Source: Rhodobium gokarnense (GTDB taxonomy: Bacteria; Pseudomonadota; Alphaproteobacteria; Rhizobiales; Rhodobiaceae). From it: 64,000 nt of DNA. Positions 13,189-23,048 of the stretch are shown here, in pieces. A program made the position numbers and the translations under genes. The notes beneath the pieces are model-generated. The model was not told where the DNA came from and did not search any database. It saw only the letters and a list, made by a program, of their open reading frames with translations. Position 1 is the stretch's first letter. Every line of letters begins with the position of its first letter. The stretch spans positions 310,001-374,000 of the forward strand of contig NZ_JAOQNS010000004.1 of NCBI RefSeq assembly GCF_025961475.1. The letters run 5' to 3'.

Positions 13189-13836
13189 TCACGAAATCTC
13201 CGCAATCAACTCTTCGGTCGTCACCTGGCGGCAATAGCCTTTGATGGCGCGGAGCGAGAAGTCATGGCGCTCCTCAGTATAGGTCGCGCAGGCGTCGGTC
13301 ACTTCCGTGACCAGATAGCCGAGGTCGCAGGCGTCGCGGATCGCGCTTTCCACGCACTGGTCGGTGACGAGGCCCGCGATGACGAGTTGCTTCACGCCGA
13401 GATTGCGCAGGATGTAGTCGATGTGGGTGGAGACGAAGACGGAGGACGAGCTCTTCGGCAGCCAGATCTCGTCGTCGGTCGGCGCCAGTTCGTCGATCAC
13501 CTTGCCGTCCCAAGAACCCTTCGGCACGTTGAAGCCCGAGATTTTGTAGTCGAGGCTGCGGTCGCGGCCGTCCTTGGTCAGGCTCTCGATGGTGGTGTAG
13601 AGGACTTCGATGCCGGCCTTTCGGAACGCCGCCTGGAGCTTTTGCATGTTGGGGATTGCGAGCGTCTTCAGGCGCTCGAAGTAATAGGCGTATTTGGTCG
13701 CGATCTCCTCGTCGGGGATGTCCTTGAACTCAGCGCCCTCGCGTTTCACGGCGAAGTTCTGGACGTCGATGAAGAGCAATGCGGATTGTGCGGGAACGAG
13801 CGGGACCTCGCGGGTCAGGCCTTCGGCAGCGGTCAT
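13189..13836 (-). CDS. Isochorismatase-family cysteine hydrolase
   Basis: The 215-residue cytoplasmic hydrolase has the family's catalytic set: Asp in FIDVQN, Lys in LPKSSSS and Cys in VTDQCVES. Relatives hydrolyse N-carbamoyl, ureido or amide bonds (ureidoacrylate, biuret, N-carbamoylsarcosine) or isochorismate. It is the last gene of the minus-strand liv operon and overlaps the amidohydrolase gene by 4 bases (ATGA), so the two are probably translationally coupled. The context suggests release of ammonia from a transported nitrogen compound. The exact substrate cannot be read from the sequence. Confidence 0.88.
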   Translation of the reverse strand: MTAAEGLTREVPLVPAQSALLFIDVQNFAVKREGAEFKDIPDEEIATKYAYYFERLKTLAIPNMQKLQAAFRKAGIEVLYTTIESLTKDGRDRSLDYKISGFNVPKGSWDGKVIDELAPTDDEIWLPKSSSSVFVSTHIDYILRNLGVKQLVIAGLVTDQCVESAIRDACDLGYLVTEVTDACATYTEERHDFSLRAIKGYCRQVTTEELIAEIS

Positions 13837-14651
13837 AGCAGTCCTTCCTGATTGGCAAGCACGTGGTCGATGACGACGGCAAGGATCCCGGTCCAGGTCT
13901 CGCGGCCTGCCGGTGTGGCGAGTTCGTCGTTGCGGACTTCCAGGAGCACATGCGGGATGCCGCGCTTCTCGCCATGGACGGGGATCGTGAAGTCGCTGTC
14001 GTCCTCGACCGTGTAGGGCTCGTTGAAGGTCGACAGATACGACGAGGCGTGGACCTCAAGGCCGGCCATCAGGTGGCGCGCCAGCCGGTCGTCGCGATTG
14101 TAGAGGAGGCCGACATGCCAGGGGCGCGGCTCGGGCCTGGCGGCAAGCTCGGCGGTGAAGGAGTGGACGGCGACGAGGAGGGCCGGCTGTCCGGCCGTCT
14201 GCCGCGCGTCGAGAAGCCCCGCGACCGTGCCGTGGAACGGCGTGTGAATATCCTCCACGCGCTGGCGGTGGGCGAGGGGCGAGATACCCCGGTTGGCCGG
14301 GATCGCGGTGCCGTCGCTAATCTCCGGCACGCATTGCGGACTTTCCGGCGGGCGGTTGCAGTCGACGACGAGGCGGCTGTAGGGCTGCAGGACGAGCGGG
14401 GCGTCGAGCCGGGCCGAGAGCCGCCGCGCGAGGTCCTCTGCGCCGATGTCGTAGGCGATGTGCCGGTCCATCTCGTGGCCTGGGACACCAAGATCGCCGA
14501 GGGCGCGCGGGATGCGGCGCCCGGCATGCTCGCAGGTGAGAAACACCGGCGATGATCCGGCCCGGTTGGCGACCTCGAAGGGCTTCGGCTCGTCAGGGCC
14601 GAGAAGGGGCGCGGTGGCGACCGCGCCGGCGTTCCGCGAAGCTTCTGCCAT
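13833..14651 (-). CDS. N-formylglutamate amidohydrolase-family protein
   Basis: The 272-residue protein shows the FGase pattern FLTCEHAGRRIP, YSRLVVDCNRPP, VAVHSF and LLEVRNDEL, with the His and Glu residues expected for zinc-dependent amide hydrolysis. In histidine breakdown this family (HutG) releases formate from N-formylglutamate, but no hut gene is present. With the neighbouring glutamine-synthetase-like ligase across the regulator, cleavage of a gamma-glutamyl or N-acyl intermediate is an alternative. It follows livH closely (3-base gap) and overlaps the cysteine hydrolase by 4 bases. Confidence 0.85.
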   Translation of the reverse strand: MAEASRNAGAVATAPLLGPDEPKPFEVANRAGSSPVFLTCEHAGRRIPRALGDLGVPGHEMDRHIAYDIGAEDLARRLSARLDAPLVLQPYSRLVVDCNRPPESPQCVPEISDGTAIPANRGISPLAHRQRVEDIHTPFHGTVAGLLDARQTAGQPALLVAVHSFTAELAARPEPRPWHVGLLYNRDDRLARHLMAGLEVHASSYLSTFNEPYTVEDDSDFTIPVHGEKRGIPHVLLEVRNDELATPAGRETWTGILAVVIDHVLANQEGLL

Positions 14652-14654
14652 GGG

Positions 14655-15548
14655 TCAGACCTTTTCCGTGCCGAAATTGGCAGAGGGAATGAGGCCGTTC
14701 GGTCGCCACAGCAGCACCAGCACGACGACGGCAAGGCCGATCGGCTCCTTGAACTCCTGCAGGCTCTCCGGCAGGAAGGCCGTGGAATAGATCTCGATGA
14801 AGCCGAGGAGGAAACCGCCGGCGACGGCACCGGTCAGCGAGCCGAGACCGCCGAGGATGGAGGCGATGAACGCCTTCAGCACCGGCACGAACCCCATCAG
14901 CGGGTCGACCGAGGCGCGCTGGGAGACCCAGAGCACCGAGGCGACGCCGGCAAGCAGGCCGGAAAGGGCGAAGGCGCCGGCGATGACCGCATTGGCCCTG
15001 ACGCCCATCAGCCGGGCGACGGGGAAATCCTCGGCCGCGGCGCGCATGGCGATGCCGACGGAGGTCCGCTTCAGGAACCAGTTGAGGAAGATCAGCATGA
15101 CGATGGTCGCGCCGATCGCGGCCAGCTTGTTGACGCCGATGAGGAAGTCGCCGAAGGCAACGCTCTGGGCAAGCCCTTCCGGCAGCGCCACCGGCTTGGA
15201 GCGCGTGGCGATGAGGTTCTGGAACAGGATCTGCAGGATCGTGGCGACGGCAAAGCTGGTGACCAGCATGGTCGCGCCGGAGGCGTTGCGCACCGGCCGG
15301 AACGCGATGCGCTCCATCAGGACGGCGGCGAGGATCGCGGCAAGGATCGCCAGCGGCACGGAGATGACGAAGGGCACGCCCGCGATGCCGCAATACATCA
15401 GCGTGTAGCCGGAAATGGTCATCAGCTCGCCGTGGGCGAAGTTGATCATCCCCATGACGGAAAAGACGATGGCAAGGCCGAGGGCGAGAAGCGCGTATGT
15501 GCCGCCGAGCGCCACCGCGTTGACCGTCTGCTGCAGGAACAGTTCCAT
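14655..15548 (-). CDS. livH: Branched-chain amino acid-type ABC transporter permease (LivH family)
   Basis: This 297-residue inner-membrane permease has about eight hydrophobic helices. The opening ALGGTYALLALGLAIVFSV and the loop MINFAHGELM are diagnostic of LivH. It should pair with the fused LivM-LivG protein and LivF. It lies 4 bases after livF in the same operon and is followed by two hydrolases, so the importer probably brings in their substrate. Confidence 0.93.
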   Translation of the reverse strand: MELFLQQTVNAVALGGTYALLALGLAIVFSVMGMINFAHGELMTISGYTLMYCGIAGVPFVISVPLAILAAILAAVLMERIAFRPVRNASGATMLVTSFAVATILQILFQNLIATRSKPVALPEGLAQSVAFGDFLIGVNKLAAIGATIVMLIFLNWFLKRTSVGIAMRAAAEDFPVARLMGVRANAVIAGAFALSGLLAGVASVLWVSQRASVDPLMGFVPVLKAFIASILGGLGSLTGAVAGGFLLGFIEIYSTAFLPESLQEFKEPIGLAVVVLVLLWRPNGLIPSANFGTEKV

Positions 15549-15552
15549 GGGG

Positions 15553-16266
15553 TCAGTGGGCTCCCAGATAGGCTTCTTCGACGATGTTGGAGGACTTCAG
15601 CTCCTCCGCCGTGCCGGAGGCGACGATGGCGCCGCCGGCGACCAGGTAGCCCCGGTCAATGATGTCGAGCGACATGGCGACGTTCTGTTCCACGAGGAGG
15701 ATGGTGATGCCTTGGGCCCGCAGCTTGGCGATCAGCTCGAAGATGGATTCCACGATCTGCGGGGCAAGGCCGAGCGACGGCTCGTCGAGGAGCAGGAGCT
15801 TCGGATCGATCATCAGCGCGCGGGCGATCGCCAGCATCTGCTGCTGGCCGCCGGAAAGCGTGCCGGCGAACTGGTGCTCGCGTTCCTTCAGGATCGGGAA
15901 CAGCTGAAAGACCTGGTCGTAGCTGTCGGATAGCGTCGAGGTGTCGGCGCGGCCGTAGGAGCCGAGCCTGAGATTTTCCGCCACCGTCAGGCCGGAAAAG
16001 ACGCGCCGGCCTTCCGGGCAGAGCGTGATGCCGCGGCGCACCAGCATTTCCGTCGGCAGCTTGGTGACGTCGTTGCCGCGAAAGGAAATCGATCCTTCCG
16101 CTGCCGGCACCAGGCTGACGATGGCGTTCAGCGTCGACGACTTGCCGGCGCCGTTGGCGCCGAGGAGGGCGACGAGTTCGCCTTCCTCGACGTTGAGCGA
16201 TACGCCCCTGACCGCTTCGACGGGGCCGTAGCGGACTTTCAGATCGGAGACGGTCAGGAGCGGCAT
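15553..16266 (-). CDS. livF: ABC transporter ATP-binding protein (LivF family)
   Basis: This 237-residue ATPase has Walker A GANGAGKSS (Lys42), signature LSGGQQQML (about residue 135) and Walker B LLLLDEPSLGL. The ATG at 16266 is chosen over the longer frame to 16323 because the protein then begins MPLLTVSDLKVRYG and a GGAAAG ribosome site lies upstream. It is the second ATPase of the complex; the first is fused to the permease at 17502-19319. The operon order is livMG, substrate-binding protein, livF, livH. Confidence 0.95.
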   Translation of the reverse strand: MPLLTVSDLKVRYGPVEAVRGVSLNVEEGELVALLGANGAGKSSTLNAIVSLVPAAEGSISFRGNDVTKLPTEMLVRRGITLCPEGRRVFSGLTVAENLRLGSYGRADTSTLSDSYDQVFQLFPILKEREHQFAGTLSGGQQQMLAIARALMIDPKLLLLDEPSLGLAPQIVESIFELIAKLRAQGITILLVEQNVAMSLDIIDRGYLVAGGAIVASGTAEELKSSNIVEEAYLGAH

Positions 16267-16288: not shown

Positions 16289-17458
16289 TTACTGCATCCG
16301 GGGGGCGGGGATGAGGTCCGCATCCGGCGAGGGCTGGCCGACGAGTTCGCGCTCGCCGCCCTTGACGCGCACGAGGGAGACTTCCCGCACGGGCATGCCC
16401 ATGGTGCCCTTGTAGGTGATCAGGCTGGTCGCGCCCTGGACGTTCTCAAGATTGGCGATGGCATCGCGGAGCGCGACGGAATCCGTGGTGCCGGCTTCCT
16501 TGACGGCGGCGGCGATCACCTGGACGAGGTCGTAGCCGATGGCGTTGAAGACGGTCTCGGACTTCTTGCCCATCTTCTCCTCGTAGAGCTTGTTGAACTT
16601 CTCCAGCGGGCTGCCCGCGGTCGGGTGGCCGGCGGTGGAGAAGACGACGCCCTCGGCCGCTTCGCCGAGCGAGAAGGTGGTGGGCGAGTCGATGCCGTCG
16701 GAGCCGATCACCTGGGAGGTGACGCCGGCGGCGCGGAGCTGCTTGATGAAGGCCGGGAAGTTCGGCTCATAGGCCGACGTCATGATGACGTCCGGCTGGG
16801 GATCGAGCGCCTTGATCTTGGTGACCTCGGCGGAGAAATCCTGTTGGTCGAGCTTGTAGGTGGCCTTGCCGAGGATCTTTCCGCCGAGCGCCTCGAAGAC
16901 GTCGCCGAAATAGAGCGGCAGCGTGGTGTACTGGGTGTCCGGCGAATAGAGCAGGTAGGCGGAGCGGTGGCCCTGGTCGAAGGCCCATTTGGCCGAGACG
17001 GTCGCCTGGACGTTGTCGCCGGGGAAGTTGGCGAACATGTAGTCGCCGCCCATCACCGGCAGGGTCGGCGAGGAGGCGCAGGTGGAAAAGGCCGGGATCT
17101 GGGCGGCGCCGGAAATCGAGGCGGCGGCGAAGGCCGGATCGGCGTCGCAGGGCAGCACCAGCACGTCGACGCCGGCATCGACCAGTTCCTGGGTGGCGAT
17201 CGAGGTCTGGGCGGCGTCGGACCGCACATCCTTGTCGATGGTCTCGATCTTGATCTTGCCGTCGATGCCGCCGGCCTCGTTGATCTCGTCGACGGCGATC
17301 TTGAAGCCCTCGATGACCGGGCCGTCGAACGGGGCGAGGCTGCCGGTCTGGGCGGTGGCGACGCCGATGGTCAGCGTGTCATCGGCAGCCGAAGCGGCAC
17401 CGAACGCGGGCAGCGCCAGCGCCGTGCCGAGGATGAGCGGTGTCAGAAACTTCTTCAT
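16289..17458 (-). CDS. Periplasmic substrate-binding protein of the Liv-type ABC transporter
   Basis: The 389-residue protein opens with a Sec signal peptide (MKKFLTPLILGTALALPAFG, cut near AASA-AD), followed by the Leu/Ile/Val-binding fold with IGVATAQTGSLAPFDG and INEAGGIDGKIKIE. It captures the substrate in the periplasm and delivers it to the permease. It sits between the fused permease-ATPase and livF. The family also binds amides, aromatic acids and urea, and the ligand here is not predictable. Confidence 0.93.
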   Translation of the reverse strand: MKKFLTPLILGTALALPAFGAASAADDTLTIGVATAQTGSLAPFDGPVIEGFKIAVDEINEAGGIDGKIKIETIDKDVRSDAAQTSIATQELVDAGVDVLVLPCDADPAFAAASISGAAQIPAFSTCASSPTLPVMGGDYMFANFPGDNVQATVSAKWAFDQGHRSAYLLYSPDTQYTTLPLYFGDVFEALGGKILGKATYKLDQQDFSAEVTKIKALDPQPDVIMTSAYEPNFPAFIKQLRAAGVTSQVIGSDGIDSPTTFSLGEAAEGVVFSTAGHPTAGSPLEKFNKLYEEKMGKKSETVFNAIGYDLVQVIAAAVKEAGTTDSVALRDAIANLENVQGATSLITYKGTMGMPVREVSLVRVKGGERELVGQPSPDADLIPAPRMQ

Positions 17459-17501: not shown

Positions 17502-19319
17502 TCAGGCCGCGATGTCGTCCTGGCGTTTGCGGCCCAGATAGGCAGTGATCACATCGGGGTTCTTCTGCACGTCGCCGGGAGCGCCCTCGGCGATGAGCTT
17601 GCCCTCGTTGAGGACGACGACGCGGTCGCACAGCCGCACGATCAGCGGCAGGTCGTGGTCGACGACGAGAAGGCCGAGGCCGAGCGTGTCGCGGAGCTTG
17701 CGCAGGGTCTCCATCAGCGCATCGGTCTCTTCGCGGTTCATGCCGGCGGCCGGCTCGTCGAGGAACAGGAAGTCGGGCTCCAGGGCGAGGGCGCGGGCGA
17801 TCTCCACCCGGCGCTGGTCGCCATAGGACAGCGTGTTGGCCTTGAATTCGGCCTTGTCGGCGATGCCCATCCAGTCGAGCGCCGCGGCGCTTGCGGCTTC
17901 GGCCTCGGCAACGCTGCGCTTCGGCCAGGCGTTGAGGGCGGCGGCGAGCACGTTCTGGCGCACGCTCAGGGTCCGGAACAGGCGGATATTCTGGAAGGTG
18001 CGGGCGATGCCGAGGCCGGCGATCCTGTGCGCCGGCATTTCGGTGATGACGGTTTCGCCCTTTTTCACAACGCCTTCGGTCGCCGGCAGGACGCCGGAGA
18101 TGAGGTTGAGGAGCGTGGTCTTGCCGGAACCGTTGGGGCCGATCAGGCCGACGATCTCGCCGGGGGCGAGCGACAGGGACACCTTGTCCACGGCGATAAG
18201 GCCGGCAAAGCGTTTGGTGACAGTCTCGGCGGTCAGCGTCGCGTCGTTTGTCGTTGCCGCCAGTTTTGGCGCGTCGTCGCCTTCCGGCACCTTTCGTCGG
18301 AACAGCCACGGCAGCAGCCGTTCGTCCCATTCGTCGAGGCCGGCAAGGCCGTCGGAGCGGCGGAACATGACGAGGAGGATGATGAGGCCGATGCCGATCT
18401 GGGTGGTGCCGAAGACCTCCGGGAGCTGGTAGCCGAAGAGGTCGATGCCGCCTTCCAGGCGCCGCAGGATCTCAGAGACCAGCGTGATGGAGACGGCGCC
18501 GACGACGGCACCGGTCATCGTCGTCATGCCGCCGACGATGAGCATGGCAAGGAGCGCGAAGGTGTCGTGGAAATAGAATTTCTTCGGCGAGAAGGCGCCG
18601 AGGAAGTGCCCCAGCGCGACGCCGGCGAGCGCAACGAGGCCGGCGCTCAGCACCCAGGCGAGCATCCGCTCGTGCTTGACGCCGATGCCGTTGGCCTTGG
18701 CCGCGATCAGGTCCTCGCGGGCGGCCCTCAGCTTCAGGCCGGGCACGGAATCCCGGAACAGGCGGACGATGACAAGGGCGACGGCGCAGACGGCGGCGGC
18801 GACCCAGATATCGGTCTCGCGCGGCACGCCGAAGAAGGACTGGCTGCCCCTCGTGATGTCGCGCGCGCCGATGATGACGCCGTGGACGATGATGAGGAGC
18901 GCAAGGGTCGCGATGGTTGCCGCCGCGCCTTCGAGCCGGGCGATGACCAGGCCGGCGACATAAGCGACGAGCATGGAGAAGGCGACGGCGACGAGGAGGG
19001 CCAGCACGAAATCGAGGTGGATGGCGGCGAGGACCGGCGGCAGGTTCGGCAGCGTCATGTTCTTCATCGCCACCGGCAGCGACAGGATCGCCGAGGTGTA
19101 GGCCGCAATGCCCATGAAAGACAGGTGGCCGAAGCTGAGAATGCCGGAATTGCCGCAGTAGAGCCCCATGCCGGCAACAGCGGCCAGGTTGATGAAGAAG
19201 ACGATCAGGGTGCGCTCGACGCCGCCGCCGACATTGGCGCCGACCATTGCGGCCGCGATCACCAGGAGGACCGGCACGAAGACGGCGATCGCCAGAAAGC
19301 GCCAGGGGAGTACCGTCAT
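17502..19319 (-). CDS. Fused ABC permease-ATPase (LivM-LivG)
   Basis: Residues 1-325 form a LivM permease (NSGILSFGHLSFMG, and REDLIAAKANGI in the coupling loop). A linker leads to a complete LivG ATPase at about 360-600: Walker A GPNGSGKT (Lys400), signature LSYGDQRR (497-504) and Walker B FLFLDEP. Most Liv systems encode these as two genes. No frameshift or internal stop marks the join, so the 605-residue fusion looks genuine. It is the first gene of the minus-strand operon and begins 212 bases from the divergent RpiR regulator. Confidence 0.94.
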   Translation of the reverse strand: MTVLPWRFLAIAVFVPVLLVIAAAMVGANVGGGVERTLIVFFINLAAVAGMGLYCGNSGILSFGHLSFMGIAAYTSAILSLPVAMKNMTLPNLPPVLAAIHLDFVLALLVAVAFSMLVAYVAGLVIARLEGAAATIATLALLIIVHGVIIGARDITRGSQSFFGVPRETDIWVAAAVCAVALVIVRLFRDSVPGLKLRAAREDLIAAKANGIGVKHERMLAWVLSAGLVALAGVALGHFLGAFSPKKFYFHDTFALLAMLIVGGMTTMTGAVVGAVSITLVSEILRRLEGGIDLFGYQLPEVFGTTQIGIGLIILLVMFRRSDGLAGLDEWDERLLPWLFRRKVPEGDDAPKLAATTNDATLTAETVTKRFAGLIAVDKVSLSLAPGEIVGLIGPNGSGKTTLLNLISGVLPATEGVVKKGETVITEMPAHRIAGLGIARTFQNIRLFRTLSVRQNVLAAALNAWPKRSVAEAEAASAAALDWMGIADKAEFKANTLSYGDQRRVEIARALALEPDFLFLDEPAAGMNREETDALMETLRKLRDTLGLGLLVVDHDLPLIVRLCDRVVVLNEGKLIAEGAPGDVQKNPDVITAYLGRKRQDDIAA

Positions 19320-19400: not shown

Positions 19401-19430
19401 ATTTCAGCAAAAGGAAAATTTCAAAGTCAA
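19401..19430 (-). promoter_or_regulatory. Candidate promoter of the liv-hydrolase operon
   Basis: On the minus strand TTGACT (19430-19425) and TGAAAT (19406-19401) are 18 bases apart. The spacer contains the motif CAAAAGGAAAATTT (plus strand 19408-19421), which recurs inverted in the opposing promoter. Confidence 0.45.
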
Positions 19431-19466
19431 TAGTTTAGTGCGCATTGACAAAAAATTTTCATTTTC
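19408..19466. promoter_or_regulatory. Inverted pair of candidate RpiR operators
   Basis: CAAAAGGAAAATTT (plus strand, 19408-19421) and GAAAATGAAAATTT (minus strand, 19466-19453) agree at 12 of 14 positions. Each lies between the -35 and -10 of one of the two divergent promoters, so one bound repressor could silence both operons. Confidence 0.5.
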
Positions 19467-19472
19467 AATAAT
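19445..19472 (+). promoter_or_regulatory. Promoter of the rpiR-ligase-aminotransferase operon
   Basis: A perfect TTGACA (19445-19450) and AATAAT (19467-19472, 5 of 6 matches) are separated by 16 bases in a distinctly AT-rich patch, about 60 bases before the regulator's start codon. Confidence 0.7.
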
Positions 19473-19531
19473 GCAGTGCGACGGTGCGAAACGCTTAAAA
19501 ACACGATGAAAAACGGCATCGGGGAGGGTAG

Positions 19532-20416
19532 ATGTTGGTGAGTGTGCGCGGCAGGATCGAGGAAATGGTCCCCGAATTGACCTCCAGCGAGCGGAAGGTG
19601 GCGACCGTCATTCTGGCGGATTATCCGTTCGCCGGGCTGCAGACCATCCAGGAACTCGCCGACCGCGCAAAGGTCTCCGCGCCGTCGATCACGCGCTTCG
19701 TCGCCAAGCTCGGCTACCATGGCTACCAGGCGTTCCAGCGCGGGCTGATCGCGGAGCTGAAGGAGAGCCATCGCTCGCCGGTCGATCTGAAACCGGAGGA
19801 AAACCCGGCGACGCCGGACCGGTTCCTCGCCGACTATGCCGATCGCCTGGCGACCCTCATCAAGGAGATGGCGGCGGCGATCCCGCAGCAGCAGTTCGAC
19901 GCCGTCTGCGACCTCATCGCCGATCCCTCGCGCAACATCTTCCTCATCGGCGGGCGTATCTCCGACACCATCGCCCGGATGCTCTCCATGCATCTCAGGC
20001 AGATCCGCGGGCGCATCCACCATCTGCCGCTCGACCCGGAGATCTGGCCGGACTACGTCCTGCGTATCCGCCGCCAGGACGTCTTTATCCTTTTCGACTT
20101 CCGCCGCTACCAGCCAAGCCTGACCGAGCTTGCCCGGCTCGTCTCGGAGCGCCGCCAGGCGCAGGTCGTTGTCGTCACCGACAAGTGGCTGGCGCCCGCC
20201 TCCCGCCATGCCGGCCACGTCCTCGTCGTGCCGACCGAAACCGGAACGGCCTGGGACGGCCAGGCCGCCGCCGTGACCCTGATCGAGGCGATGATCGTCT
20301 CGATTTCGGAGCGCGACTGGGAGGCGACCCGCAAACGCATCGAACAATGGGACGACGCCCGCATCACGCTCGGGCGGTCCGGACCGGACATGGACATTGA
20401 GGAGATTGATCCGTGA
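19532..20416 (+). CDS. RpiR-family transcriptional regulator (HTH + SIS)
   Basis: The 294-residue protein has an N-terminal HTH_6 domain (residues 1-77, with LADRAKVSAPSITRFVAKLG as recognition region) and a C-terminal SIS domain (about 125-260) that usually senses a phosphorylated or sugar-like ligand. It is first in a plus-strand operon, overlaps the ligase gene by 4 bases and faces the liv operon, so it probably controls both. The AT-rich inverted motif pair in the shared promoter region is its likely target. Confidence 0.9.
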   Translation: MLVSVRGRIEEMVPELTSSERKVATVILADYPFAGLQTIQELADRAKVSAPSITRFVAKLGYHGYQAFQRGLIAELKESHRSPVDLKPEENPATPDRFLADYADRLATLIKEMAAAIPQQQFDAVCDLIADPSRNIFLIGGRISDTIARMLSMHLRQIRGRIHHLPLDPEIWPDYVLRIRRQDVFILFDFRRYQPSLTELARLVSERRQAQVVVVTDKWLAPASRHAGHVLVVPTETGTAWDGQAAAVTLIEAMIVSISERDWEATRKRIEQWDDARITLGRSGPDMDIEEIDP

Positions 20417-21726
20417 AGCAGGAATCCCTGGTTTTTCTGTGCACCAGCGACATCGCCGGCAAGGTGCGCGGCAAGGCGTTTCCCGAAAGCGATTTCGAAA
20501 AGCGCCTGAAGCGCGGCATCGGCTGGACGCCGACCAATGTGCAGATCACCTGCTTCGATGCGATCGCCGACAGCCCCTATGGCGCGCTCGGTGACCTCGT
20601 CATGATCCCCGATCCCGACACCATGGTGGTCGCCGACTATATGGACGAGCGCCCGCCCGAGCGTTTCGTCCTCGGCGATATCCATGAGACGACGGGCGAG
20701 GCATGGGAGTGCTGCACCCGCTCGATCCTGAAGGGCGCGCTGGAGCGTTTGGAGCGGGTCGCCGGCGTCACGCTGGTCTCGGCCTTCGAGCACGAGTTTC
20801 ACTTCAAGGGCGGTAACTGTCCGCTCGGCTCGGCCTACAGCGCCTCCGGCTTTCGCGCCGAGCGGGATTTCGCAGAGGCACTGACCGCCGTCATGCGCAC
20901 CGCCCATCTCGGCCCGGACACCATTATGAAGGAGTACGGCGTCGACCAGTATGAGGTGACCATGAAGCCGGCGGCCGGCATTGCCGGGGCCGACCATGCC
21001 GTGATCCTGCGCGAACTGGTGCGGATCACCGCCGGCCGCGTCGGCCGCGAGGCGAGCTTTACGCCTCTGCGCAGCCCCGCCGGCGTCGGCAACGGCGTCC
21101 ACATCCATATGAGCATGCGCCACGCCGACGGCACGCCGGCCACCTACGATCCGGACGGCCCGCACGGGCTCTCCAAGGTCGCCGGCCAGTTCGTCGCCGG
21201 CGTGCTCGCCTATCTCGACCGCATCGTCGCCGTTACCGCGCCGAGCGTCATCTCCTATACGCGGCTGACGCCGCATCGCTGGAGCGCTGCCTTCAACAAT
21301 CTCGGCTACCGCGACCGGGAGGCCTCGGTACGCATCTGTCCCGTCTCCGGCATGAGCGATATCGCCACGGCAGAGCAGTTCAATTTCGAGTTCCGGGCCG
21401 GCGATGCTGCGGCGAGCCCCTATCTGGCACTGGCCGCCATCGTCCATGCCGGAACGCAGGGCATCGAGGAGGGGCTGACCCCGCCGGCGGCCACGGAAGA
21501 GGACCTGTCGCTTCTTTCCATGGAAGAGCTTAACAAGCGTGGTTTCATACGGTTGCCGCAATCTCTTGAAGAAGCACTTGAACGATTTTCGGGCGATGAA
21601 ACGGTCACCGGATGGTTCCCGGGCCGGTTCGCCGAAGTCTACGCCAAGCACAAGAAGGGCGAGATCGACTTCCTCAAGGGCCGCAAGGAGGACGACGTCT
21701 GTGCGGCGTACGAGGAGGTCTACTAG
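20413..21726 (+). CDS. Glutamine synthetase-family ligase (possible gamma-glutamyl-amine ligase)
   Basis: The 437-residue protein has the GS catalytic fold. SAFEHEFHF carries the metal-binding glutamates, GNGVHIHMSM the metal-binding histidine region, and ICPVSGM and FEFRAGDAAASPYL active-site strands. It lacks the NLYDLPPEE adenylylation loop of type I enzymes, so it is not a housekeeping GS. Relatives include PuuA and other enzymes that join glutamate to amines, or formylglutamate-type ligases. Coupling with an aminotransferase and, across the promoter, with an FGase-like hydrolase fits catabolism through a glutamylated or formylated intermediate. The substrate is unknown. Confidence 0.87.
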   Translation: MKQESLVFLCTSDIAGKVRGKAFPESDFEKRLKRGIGWTPTNVQITCFDAIADSPYGALGDLVMIPDPDTMVVADYMDERPPERFVLGDIHETTGEAWECCTRSILKGALERLERVAGVTLVSAFEHEFHFKGGNCPLGSAYSASGFRAERDFAEALTAVMRTAHLGPDTIMKEYGVDQYEVTMKPAAGIAGADHAVILRELVRITAGRVGREASFTPLRSPAGVGNGVHIHMSMRHADGTPATYDPDGPHGLSKVAGQFVAGVLAYLDRIVAVTAPSVISYTRLTPHRWSAAFNNLGYRDREASVRICPVSGMSDIATAEQFNFEFRAGDAAASPYLALAAIVHAGTQGIEEGLTPPAATEEDLSLLSMEELNKRGFIRLPQSLEEALERFSGDETVTGWFPGRFAEVYAKHKKGEIDFLKGRKEDDVCAAYEEVY

Positions 21727-21728
21727 GA

Positions 21729-23048
21729 ATGGCCTTCCCGCTCTACGAAAAAGACCAGAAAACGCTCTCCAAGCTGCAGAACCTTCGCTTCTTCCCGCTC
21801 GCCGTCACCGGCGGCAACGGCTCCTATGTGATCGCCGAGGACGGCCGCAAGCTGCTCGACCTTTCCGCCTCCTGGGGCGCGGCGAGCCTGGGGCATGGCC
21901 ATCCGGCCTTTGTGGCGGCAATCACCGCGGCGGCGGCCAACCCCGCCGGCGCCAGCATCCTGTCGGCGGCGAGCGCGCCGGCGATCCGGCTCGGCGAGCG
22001 GCTGCTTGCGCTGACGCCGGGCACCGGCGAGCGCCGGGTCTGGCTCGGCCATTCCGGGTCCGACGCCAACGAGACCGTGGCGCGCGCCGTCGTTGCCGCC
22101 ACCGGCCGCAAGCGGCTGATCGCCTTCACCGGCGCCTATCACGGCGGCACGGCAGGCTCCATGGCGGTTTCGGGTCACTCGGCGCAGGAAGGCTCCGACA
22201 AGGCGGAGGGCCTCAGCCTCGTTCCCTATCCCGATCCGTACCGACCGTTCGCCGACGATCCGACGGGGGCGGCGCTGCTCGACCAGATCGAGGAACTGCT
22301 GGCCGGTCCCTGTCCCGGCGAGGAGACGGCGGCGTTCTTCATCGAGCCGATCCAGTCGGACGGCGGGTTGATCGTGCCGCCGCCCGGCTTCTTCAAGCGG
22401 CTGGCGGAAATCTGCGCGCGCTACGGCATCCTGACCGTCAGCGACGAGGTCAAGGTCGGCATGGGCCGGACCGGGCGGCTACACTGCTACATGCATGAGG
22501 ACTTCACGCCTGACATCGTCGTCTGCGGCAAGGGGCTGGGCGGCGGCGTGCCGATTTCCGCGGTGATCGGGCCTGCAAGCATCCTCGACTTTGCCGTCTG
22601 CTTTTCCATGCAGACGCTGCACGGCAACGCCATTTCCTGCGGCGCGTCCCATGCGGTGCTCGACACCATCGAGACCGAAAAGCTGATCGACAATGCCGCC
22701 ACGGTCGGCGGACATCTGCTCAACTCTCTGGAATCCTTGAAAGAAAAACACGCCGAGATCGGCGAGGTTCGAGGGCGGGGGCTCGCCATCGGCGTCGAAC
22801 TCGTCACCGACCGGGAGACCAAGGAACCGGCGAAAAAGCTCGCCGCCAAGGTCGTCTACCGGGCCTTCGAGCTCGGACTCGTCGTCTACTATGTGGGCAT
22901 GAACTCCAACGTCTTGGAGCTGACGCCGCCGTTGACGCTGTCGGCGGCGGAGGCCGACGAGGCCGTGGCGATCATCTCCGACGCGATTTCCGATGCGGCG
23001 GCCGGGCGGGTCGACGACGCCAAGCTGAAGGGTTTTGAGGGCTGGTAG
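21729..23048 (+). CDS. Class III pyridoxal-phosphate aminotransferase
   Basis: This 439-residue PLP enzyme has LSASWGAASLGHGHP, SGSDANETVARAV, TGAYHGGTAGS, SDEVKVGMGRTG and the PLP lysine in VCGKGLGGG. It resembles GABA/ornithine-type aminotransferases, which move an omega-amino group to a keto acid. The ATG at 21729 begins 2 bases after the ligase stop and has AGGA overlapping the junction. The longer frame from 21612 runs inside the ligase gene and is rejected. It is the last gene of the RpiR operon. Confidence 0.92.
   Translation: MAFPLYEKDQKTLSKLQNLRFFPLAVTGGNGSYVIAEDGRKLLDLSASWGAASLGHGHPAFVAAITAAAANPAGASILSAASAPAIRLGERLLALTPGTGERRVWLGHSGSDANETVARAVVAATGRKRLIAFTGAYHGGTAGSMAVSGHSAQEGSDKAEGLSLVPYPDPYRPFADDPTGAALLDQIEELLAGPCPGEETAAFFIEPIQSDGGLIVPPPGFFKRLAEICARYGILTVSDEVKVGMGRTGRLHCYMHEDFTPDIVVCGKGLGGGVPISAVIGPASILDFAVCFSMQTLHGNAISCGASHAVLDTIETEKLIDNAATVGGHLLNSLESLKEKHAEIGEVRGRGLAIGVELVTDRETKEPAKKLAAKVVYRAFELGLVVYYVGMNSNVLELTPPLTLSAAEADEAVAIISDAISDAAAGRVDDAKLKGFEGW

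Follow-up and report, generated by a model that had tools for sequence, protein, structure and literature searches.

A candidate compound operator for an RpiR-family regulator within two divergent promoters of Rhodobium gokarnense

A 212-bp intergenic region in the window, by which we mean the whole stretch of 64,000 nucleotides analysed here from the 5.1-Mb genome of Rhodobium gokarnense, separates the start of a fused livM-livG gene on the minus strand (19319) from that of an rpiR-family regulatory gene on the plus strand (19532), and raises the question of whether a single regulator could govern both of the operons that diverge from it. Among named relatives, the nearest to emerge was Rhodobium orientis DSM 11290, with an RpiR 99% identical. 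Our answer, which we hold to be likely on the strength of sequence comparison, is that positions 19401-19472 form a compound operator from which the adjoining RpiR protein, probably as a tetramer, would repress both operons and itself by way of two sites. Comparison with related loci shows the palindrome of this predicted operator, its pairing, a near-constant spacing in most loci, and its presence in front of the operon for an N-formylglutamate-amidohydrolase-like enzyme (FGase) in two loci that have no divergent rpiR.

Divergent operons and their promoters

The genes on both sides of the intergenic region, its promoters and the predicted operators are collected in Table 1. The regulator belongs to the RpiR family by its domains, an N-terminal HTH_6 and a C-terminal SIS. 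The best NCBIfam match of the glutamine-synthetase-like ligase (GS) is gamma-glutamylputrescine synthetase, at 254.9 bits against a cut-off of 650, and that of the FGase-like protein reaches 22.6 bits against a curated cut-off of 278.75; both fall below their curated cut-offs, and the enzymes of the cluster suggest that the substrate would be a nitrogen compound. The isochorismatase-family hydrolase is one of the cluster's best-conserved proteins, being 74.9-80.9% identical in the 13 loci whose stretch covers it, and 67.8-79.7% identical in the alphaproteobacterial rows among the 40 of 64 plasmid records listed. A weak terminator-like hairpin with a T run lies on the minus strand between the rpiR promoter and rpiR (19504-19521).

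Table 1. Features of the divergent locus, in window coordinates
Feature	Position	Strand	Basis or remark
Isochorismatase-family cysteine hydrolase	13189..13836	-	PF00857
N-formylglutamate-amidohydrolase-like enzyme (FGase)	13833..14651	-	PF05013
LivH-type permease	14655..15548	-	PF02653
LivF-type ATPase	15553..16266	-	PF00005; ATG picked within ORF starting 16323
liv-type transporter periplasmic binding protein	16289..17458	-	PF13458
Fused LivM-LivG (permease + ATPase), first gene of divergent operon	17502..19319	-	PF02653 + PF00005
Putative liv promoter: TTGACT (19430-19425), ~17-18 nt, weak TGAAAT (19406-19401)	19401..19430	-	Sequence
Left predicted operator, CAAAAGGAAAATTTCA (minus strand: TGAAATTTTCCTTTTG), degenerate	19408..19423		Fills spacer of putative liv promoter
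GTCAA-N14-TTGAC core, two -35 boxes back to back, 14-bp spacer	19426..19449		Orthologue alignment
rpiR promoter: TTGACA (19445-19450), 16 nt, AATAAT (19467-19472)	19445..19472	+	Sequence and promoter scan
Right predicted operator, TGACAAAAAATTTTCA, palindrome TGA-N10-TCA	19446..19461		Overlaps rpiR promoter -35 box and spacer
RpiR-family regulator, HTH_6 + SIS	19532..20416	+	Pfam PF01418 53.3 bits, PF01380 77.2 bits, both above gathering
Glutamine-synthetase-like ligase (GS)	20413..21726	+	PF00120
Class-III aminotransferase	21729..23048	+	PF00202; ATG picked within ORF starting 21612

A sequence-only reading of this DNA had described a plus-strand promoter with a perfect TTGACA, and that promoter stands, agreeing with the consensus at 11 of 12 bases. 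The opposing liv promoter is a putative one; its -10 hexamer is poor (4/6 consensus), and a promoter scan of the window region listed no minus-strand promoter.

A palindrome recurring at 38-39 bp

Relatives of the locus were gathered by an order-level search, which gave rpiR matches in 31 of 397 genomes, with five loci from a scan of named genomes and 15 taken in from the 30 records of a plasmid search. At class level, a search at E 1e-65 matched one of 385 genomes, namely the genome of origin; this absence is weak evidence, because at most six candidates per genome were scored among the matches listed. One distant match (G086) was left out, near-identical loci were removed by deduplication, and two kinds of locus were dropped before counting: L035-L039, with a distant rpiR (39.1-43.7% identity), and L044, which had a spurious anchor and an rpiR (44.2% identical) near the distant group, and which was later used as an outside case. 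The orthologous set comprises 44 loci (L005-L034, L040-L043 and L045-L054, L006 and L007 being one record). Its recurring arrangement is an rpiR divergent from livM-livG or from FGase-isochorismatase, seen in Hyphomicrobiales, and in Sulfitobacter and Paracoccus as well, with GS directly downstream of rpiR in 26 of the 30 loci L005-L034. A related cassette, in which GS-like, rpiR, FGase-like, isochorismatase, class-III aminotransferase and APC permease genes occur together, lies on an enterobacterial plasmid (Pluralibacter, L067), and its isochorismatase is about 61% identical to that of the window; the 32 Klebsiella records among the 64 matches of the isochorismatase search are known as matches alone, the cassette having been read in the Pluralibacter record only.

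Back-to-back -35 boxes, [GA]TCAA-N9..15-TTGA[CT], are found in 41 of the 44 orthologous loci, the spacer from box to box being 14 bp in 33 of the 41 anchored loci, 15 bp in five, and 9, 10 and 11 bp in one each. With its TTTC tail, the GTCAA-N14-TTGAC pattern has one match in the Rhodobium genome, and the composite pattern, searched across 14 genomes, matches 12 times in 10 of them, nine at rpiR loci and three elsewhere. Conservation of the arms beyond the boxes was counted on 23 deduplicated relatives, Rhodobium left out. Going outward from its TTGAC, the left arm keeps TGA at positions 3-5 in 23, 22 and 21 of these and TC at positions 16-17 in 21 and 22, and the right arm keeps T9, T10, C11 and A12 in 22, 18, 19 and 19. 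Judged from this alignment, both arms hold one and the same 16-bp palindrome, TGA-N10-TCA (of the TGAAA-N6-TTTCA type). Unanchored de novo motif discovery in the 23 relatives returned TGAAAAAATTTTTTCA at width 16 with a log-likelihood ratio of 304.8, against 112.8 +/- 8.4 (maximum 126.4) in 30 shuffle sets. Widths of 12-22 were tried, of which 17-22 score somewhat higher (308.0-333.0); we settled on width 16 because it is there that the TGA/TCA ends come in and that the score climbs steeply, from the 238.1 of width 15. Of five rpiR-FGase loci that are more distant, three (L035, L037 and L039) show by eye a single palindrome of the same geometry, which reads TGGAA-N6-TTCCA in L037.

We defined a strict pair as two 16-mers, each with at least five of the six bases of TGA...TCA, whose starts lie 38 or 39 bp apart. 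It is important to note that this anchor-free rule was adopted after a noisy leave-one-out result, and hence chosen after the alignment had been seen: with few restarts, the top two sites fell 38/39 bp apart in only 8 of 24, four runs gave 42 and several were one base out of register, while the run with Rhodobium left out of training placed the two best sites of the window 38 bp apart. By the strict rule, 19 of 27 deduplicated intergenic regions hold a pair (shuffles: mean 0.29, maximum 2), as do 21 of 27 loci, the window being one of the 27, when 40 bp more are kept at the gene start (mean 0.35, maximum 3). The count goes from 21/27 to 15/21 and 8/13 as deduplication tightens from 80 to 65 and 55% identity, and stands at 21 of 28 with the late-added L077; the six of 27 without a strict pair are L005 (the window), L009, L010, L034, L027 and L031. 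In the set of 24 loci examined with both -35 boxes held fixed, where 20 pass at 38/39, other spacing windows give 1-2 of 24 (33/34 to 36/37 bp) and 0-6 of 24 (40/41 to 43/44 bp). The left arms of L008, L011 and L040 hold an overlapping second palindrome that fits a pair at 42 bp instead of 38. Two separate predicted operator pairs, at 38 or 39 bp, are found in each of L045 (Sinorhizobium fredii NXT3) and L049 (Ciceribacter thiooxidans), roughly 43-82 and 172-212 bp upstream of rpiR, with the FGase gene farther off.

Within the window, the right site scores 17.9 bits by a matrix trained without Rhodobium, the best in the 64 kb, and is the single match in 5.1 Mb to TGAHAANNNNWTTTCA, a pattern made after the relatives and the right site had been seen. 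The left site starts exactly 38 bp from it and scores 4.3 bits, rank 18 of 63,985 positions, and the two together are the window's best pair at 38 by sum and by minimum. With four of the six key bases, the left site leaves the window short of the strict rule (the 64 kb hold zero strict pairs, and 52 pairs at 4/6 laxity); the inner TGA of this arm is kept in 21-23 of 23 relatives, and the outer C17, present in 22 of 23, is lost here. Its score is reached in 310 of 5000 local shuffles, and is not significant alone given local composition, so that our ground for accepting the left site is that orthology calls for one at this place, and not its own strength. Compared with R. orientis, 2 of the 212 intergenic bases differ (19476 and 19481), both outside the predicted operators, and the flanking genes show 65/1287, 37/882 and 105/1311 differences (4-8%).

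Several loci help to separate the pair from its usual surroundings. L018, in which GS is the divergent gene, shows the two registers swapped over, at a spacing of 39. Phyllobacterium L044 has its rpiR on the same strand as FGase-isochorismatase and downstream of them, with a pair at 38 between GS and FGase; in genome G180 (L072), a pair precedes the FGase operon, behind a co-directional gene and on a contig other than those of the two rpiR genes of that genome, the FGase start there being uncertain, with the longest ORF beginning upstream of the pair. By eye, the -35-overlapping site of L018 and L044 reads towards GS as it does in the window, two cases being few. No strict pair was found in the divergent intergenic regions of L068/L071, L066 and L067, none of which has a close rpiR relative adjoining (41% identity only in the L068/L071 genome, none in the fetched stretch of L066, 37% in L067). 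The same holds for the whole of L069 (4.3 kb, with a GS-like gene of G180, 52% identity), for the whole stretches L070, L075 and L076, and for other intergenic regions in L040 (two stretches), L041 (two), L042, L043 (GS and aminotransferase) and L044 (before rpiR); a weaker pair at 38 (4/6 + 5/6) before the GS of Paracoccus L043 was not counted. L077, a further rpiR locus of G180 (second copy), also gave no strict pair, and its fetched stretch has no divergent cluster gene; at about 780-795 it carries one perfect site overlapping its -35 box and unpartnered at 38/39, as though a single promoter had retained a single site. Strict pairs occur outside these promoters too (L043 3185, L044 1570 and 4945, L066 14150), so a single pair is weak evidence. 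The one at L044 4945-4999, spaced at 39 bp, stands just upstream of a second, more distant rpiR (31% identity), and is either chance or the same architecture in a paralogue.

A predicted repressor and its alternatives

We hypothesize that two 16-bp palindromes, their starts 38 bp apart, are built into back-to-back sigma-70-type promoters, the left one filling the -35/-10 spacer of the putative liv-FGase-isochorismatase promoter and the right one overlapping the -35 box and upstream spacer of the rpiR-GS-aminotransferase promoter. The neighbouring RpiR protein would be the binder, and as a tetramer (a dimer of dimers) would hold both sites at once; both promoters would be hidden from RNA polymerase upon binding, rpiR would be autoregulated, and release would come from an inducer, probably derived from an imported nitrogen compound. 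In Rhodobium, part of the outer half is missing from the left site, whose occupation would depend on cooperative binding with the strong right one. The 38-39 bp from one start to the next do not make up an integral number of helical turns, which counts against the proposal. The sequence-only reading had already supposed one repressor for both operons, and this is borne out in part, in that each promoter appears to have a shared site, conserved in most of the orthologous intergenic regions examined and placed where it would block.

A profile of 20 relatives of the regulator finds 8ju9, 8k3b, 4ivn and 8v4v in the PDB, while a single-sequence PDB search with the window protein gave no match at E 0.001. 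The SIS phosphosugar loop S-x-S-G-x-S/T, represented by SQSGRS in 8ju9 and SSSGST in 4ivn, aligns to D-F-R-R-Y-Q, and D189, R191, R192 and Y193 of this D-x-R-R-Y loop are invariant in 20 of 20 aligned proteins. Phosphate contacts described for SpNanR are Ser135, Ser179, Leu180, Ser181 and Thr184 (PMC12713135). With the loop replaced, the effector is probably not a sugar phosphate, which leaves family membership by domains unaffected, and the arginines of D-x-R-R-Y suggest an acidic ligand. More tentatively, and as an idea that we would not yet favour, there may be an alphaproteobacterial RpiR subfamily in which D-x-R-R-Y takes the place of the phosphosugar loop, nitrogen compounds are sensed, and two promoters are gripped via operators 38-39 bp apart, the one towards GS in the -35-overlapping register and the other in the spacer register; the sensed compound would perhaps be an intermediate, gamma-glutamyl or carboxylate-bearing, that the arginines hold in place.

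Other explanations were weighed. The sequence-only reading had proposed two 14-mers on opposite strands, CAAAAGGAAAATTT (plus, 19408-19421) and GAAAATGAAAATTT (minus, 19453-19466), as an inverted motif lying within both -35/-10 spacers. The two are present and agree at 12 of 14 positions, and SAAAAKGAAAATTT, a pattern built from them, has exact matches in the 5.1-Mb genome at these two places only; that they are the operator in their own register is nevertheless barely credible. Their similarity alone is marginal, because dinucleotide shuffling of the 212-bp intergenic region yields inverted 14-mer pairs with at least 12 identities in 18 of 300 trials, and that of its AT-rich core (19401-19480) in 9 of 300. 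The left 14-mer is the conserved palindrome minus its last two bases, whereas the right one starts 7 bp off the site that is conserved on its side, and conservation is lacking at its distal TTTTC (19462-19466), with 0.01-0.32 bits at arm positions 13-17 in 23 relatives; the register was dropped when set against those relatives. Placement within the spacers holds provided that TTGACT, followed by a spacer of 17-18, forms the minus promoter, but the conserved right site overlaps the -35 box, and the label of inversion is meaningless for a site that is palindromic. In the comparison with orthologous intergenic regions, which the same reading had named as a way to refute it, the idea of a conserved motif survived and the exact motif and register failed. 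Another view is that only two divergent promoters are conserved, as TTGAC boxes and AT-rich spacers with no dedicated operator. No letters of the alignment vary less than TTGAC and GTCAA, and spacers rich in AT are commonplace, yet we give this little credence: with the boxes fixed and the arms shuffled 1000 times, pairs at 38/39 average 0.21 (maximum 3) against 20 of 24 observed, and the TGA and TC of the left arm are not promoter elements. Moreover, in L021 and L029, with box-to-box spacers of 11 and 10, the right site shifts its register from -4 to +1 and the pair is still at 38/39, and L043 has a strict pair despite failing the TTGAC anchor.

The palindromes could also be bound by another protein, such as a global nitrogen regulator, with RpiR acting elsewhere. 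The cluster does resemble one for nitrogen-compound use, the role of RpiR as binder is one that we infer, and a pair at 39 also stands before the second, more distant rpiR of L044; even so, we regard this as unlikely, since both the composite pattern and the refined palindrome occur once each in the Rhodobium genome, unlike the site of a global regulator, nine of the 12 composite matches are at rpiR loci, the palindrome has the geometry of the IolR site, and the three loci without a close rpiR relative adjoining carry no pair. Or RpiR might bind the pair and activate one or both operons, as reported for SpNanR, an activator in the published description, for which bridging by a tetramer is proposed (PMC12713135). 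We think this quite improbable: the sites here lie on a -35 box and a spacer, where binding should block polymerase, and the SpNanR site of nan operon-I is placed 55 bp from the -35 box in that account (PMC12713135). Repression of both operons by RpiR from the paired sites is the reading that we favour.

Relation to known RpiR operators

Paired RpiR operators are already known, and what is new here is the other spacing together with the altered SIS loop, which differs from that of solved relatives; a search of the open-licence literature found no description of this RpiR subfamily or operator. In E. coli, murR and murQ are divergent. A MurR tetramer has been proposed to bridge two adjacent sites that overlap -35/-10 elements, 17 bp apart and spanning 47 bp (PMC12713135). 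The present case is similar in having an RpiR-family regulator and two palindromes at a fixed distance (in 21 of 27 loci, the degenerate left copy of the window failing the strict rule) that overlap promoter elements, the promoter of the left site being putative. It differs in having one site per divergent promoter, and a gap of 22-23 bp and a span of 54-55 bp, for which reason we do not file it as a MurR operator. Caulobacter IolR recognizes GGAANATNCGTTCCA, which occurs twice in the iolC promoter, at 104 and at 45 bp upstream of the start (PMC2597717). It shares the RpiR family and a 16-bp geometry with flanking T/A, but its half-site is GGAA where ours is GAAA, and the iolC copies, at the positions given there, are not 38 bp apart (PMC2597717); TGACAAAAAATTTTCA and TGAAATTTTCCTTTTG of the window have the geometry of the IolR operator GGAA-N6-TTCC in other letters. 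Pseudomonas RccR, with two 15-bp sites 68 bp apart upstream of aceE, and HexR likewise belong to the RpiR family and bind pseudo-palindromes, but with half-sites TGTAGT and TTGT (PMC5489143). The S. pneumoniae NanR site, TCTGAAAGTACTTTTAGA, resembles ours in a half-site containing TGAAA, and NanR shows dimer-tetramer behaviour; it differs in its shorter inner spacing, in being described as an activator, and in lying far from the nan operon-I -35 box (PMC12713135).

Through the comparison, an RpiR subfamily gains a predicted operator and regulon open to direct testing. The predicted operator is attached to a putative nitrogen-use cassette, which occurs in Hyphomicrobiales and Rhodobacterales and, on an enterobacterial plasmid, alongside a more distant regulator. 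The near-constant spacing of 38-39 bp within the operator predicts that one RpiR tetramer would bridge the two sites.
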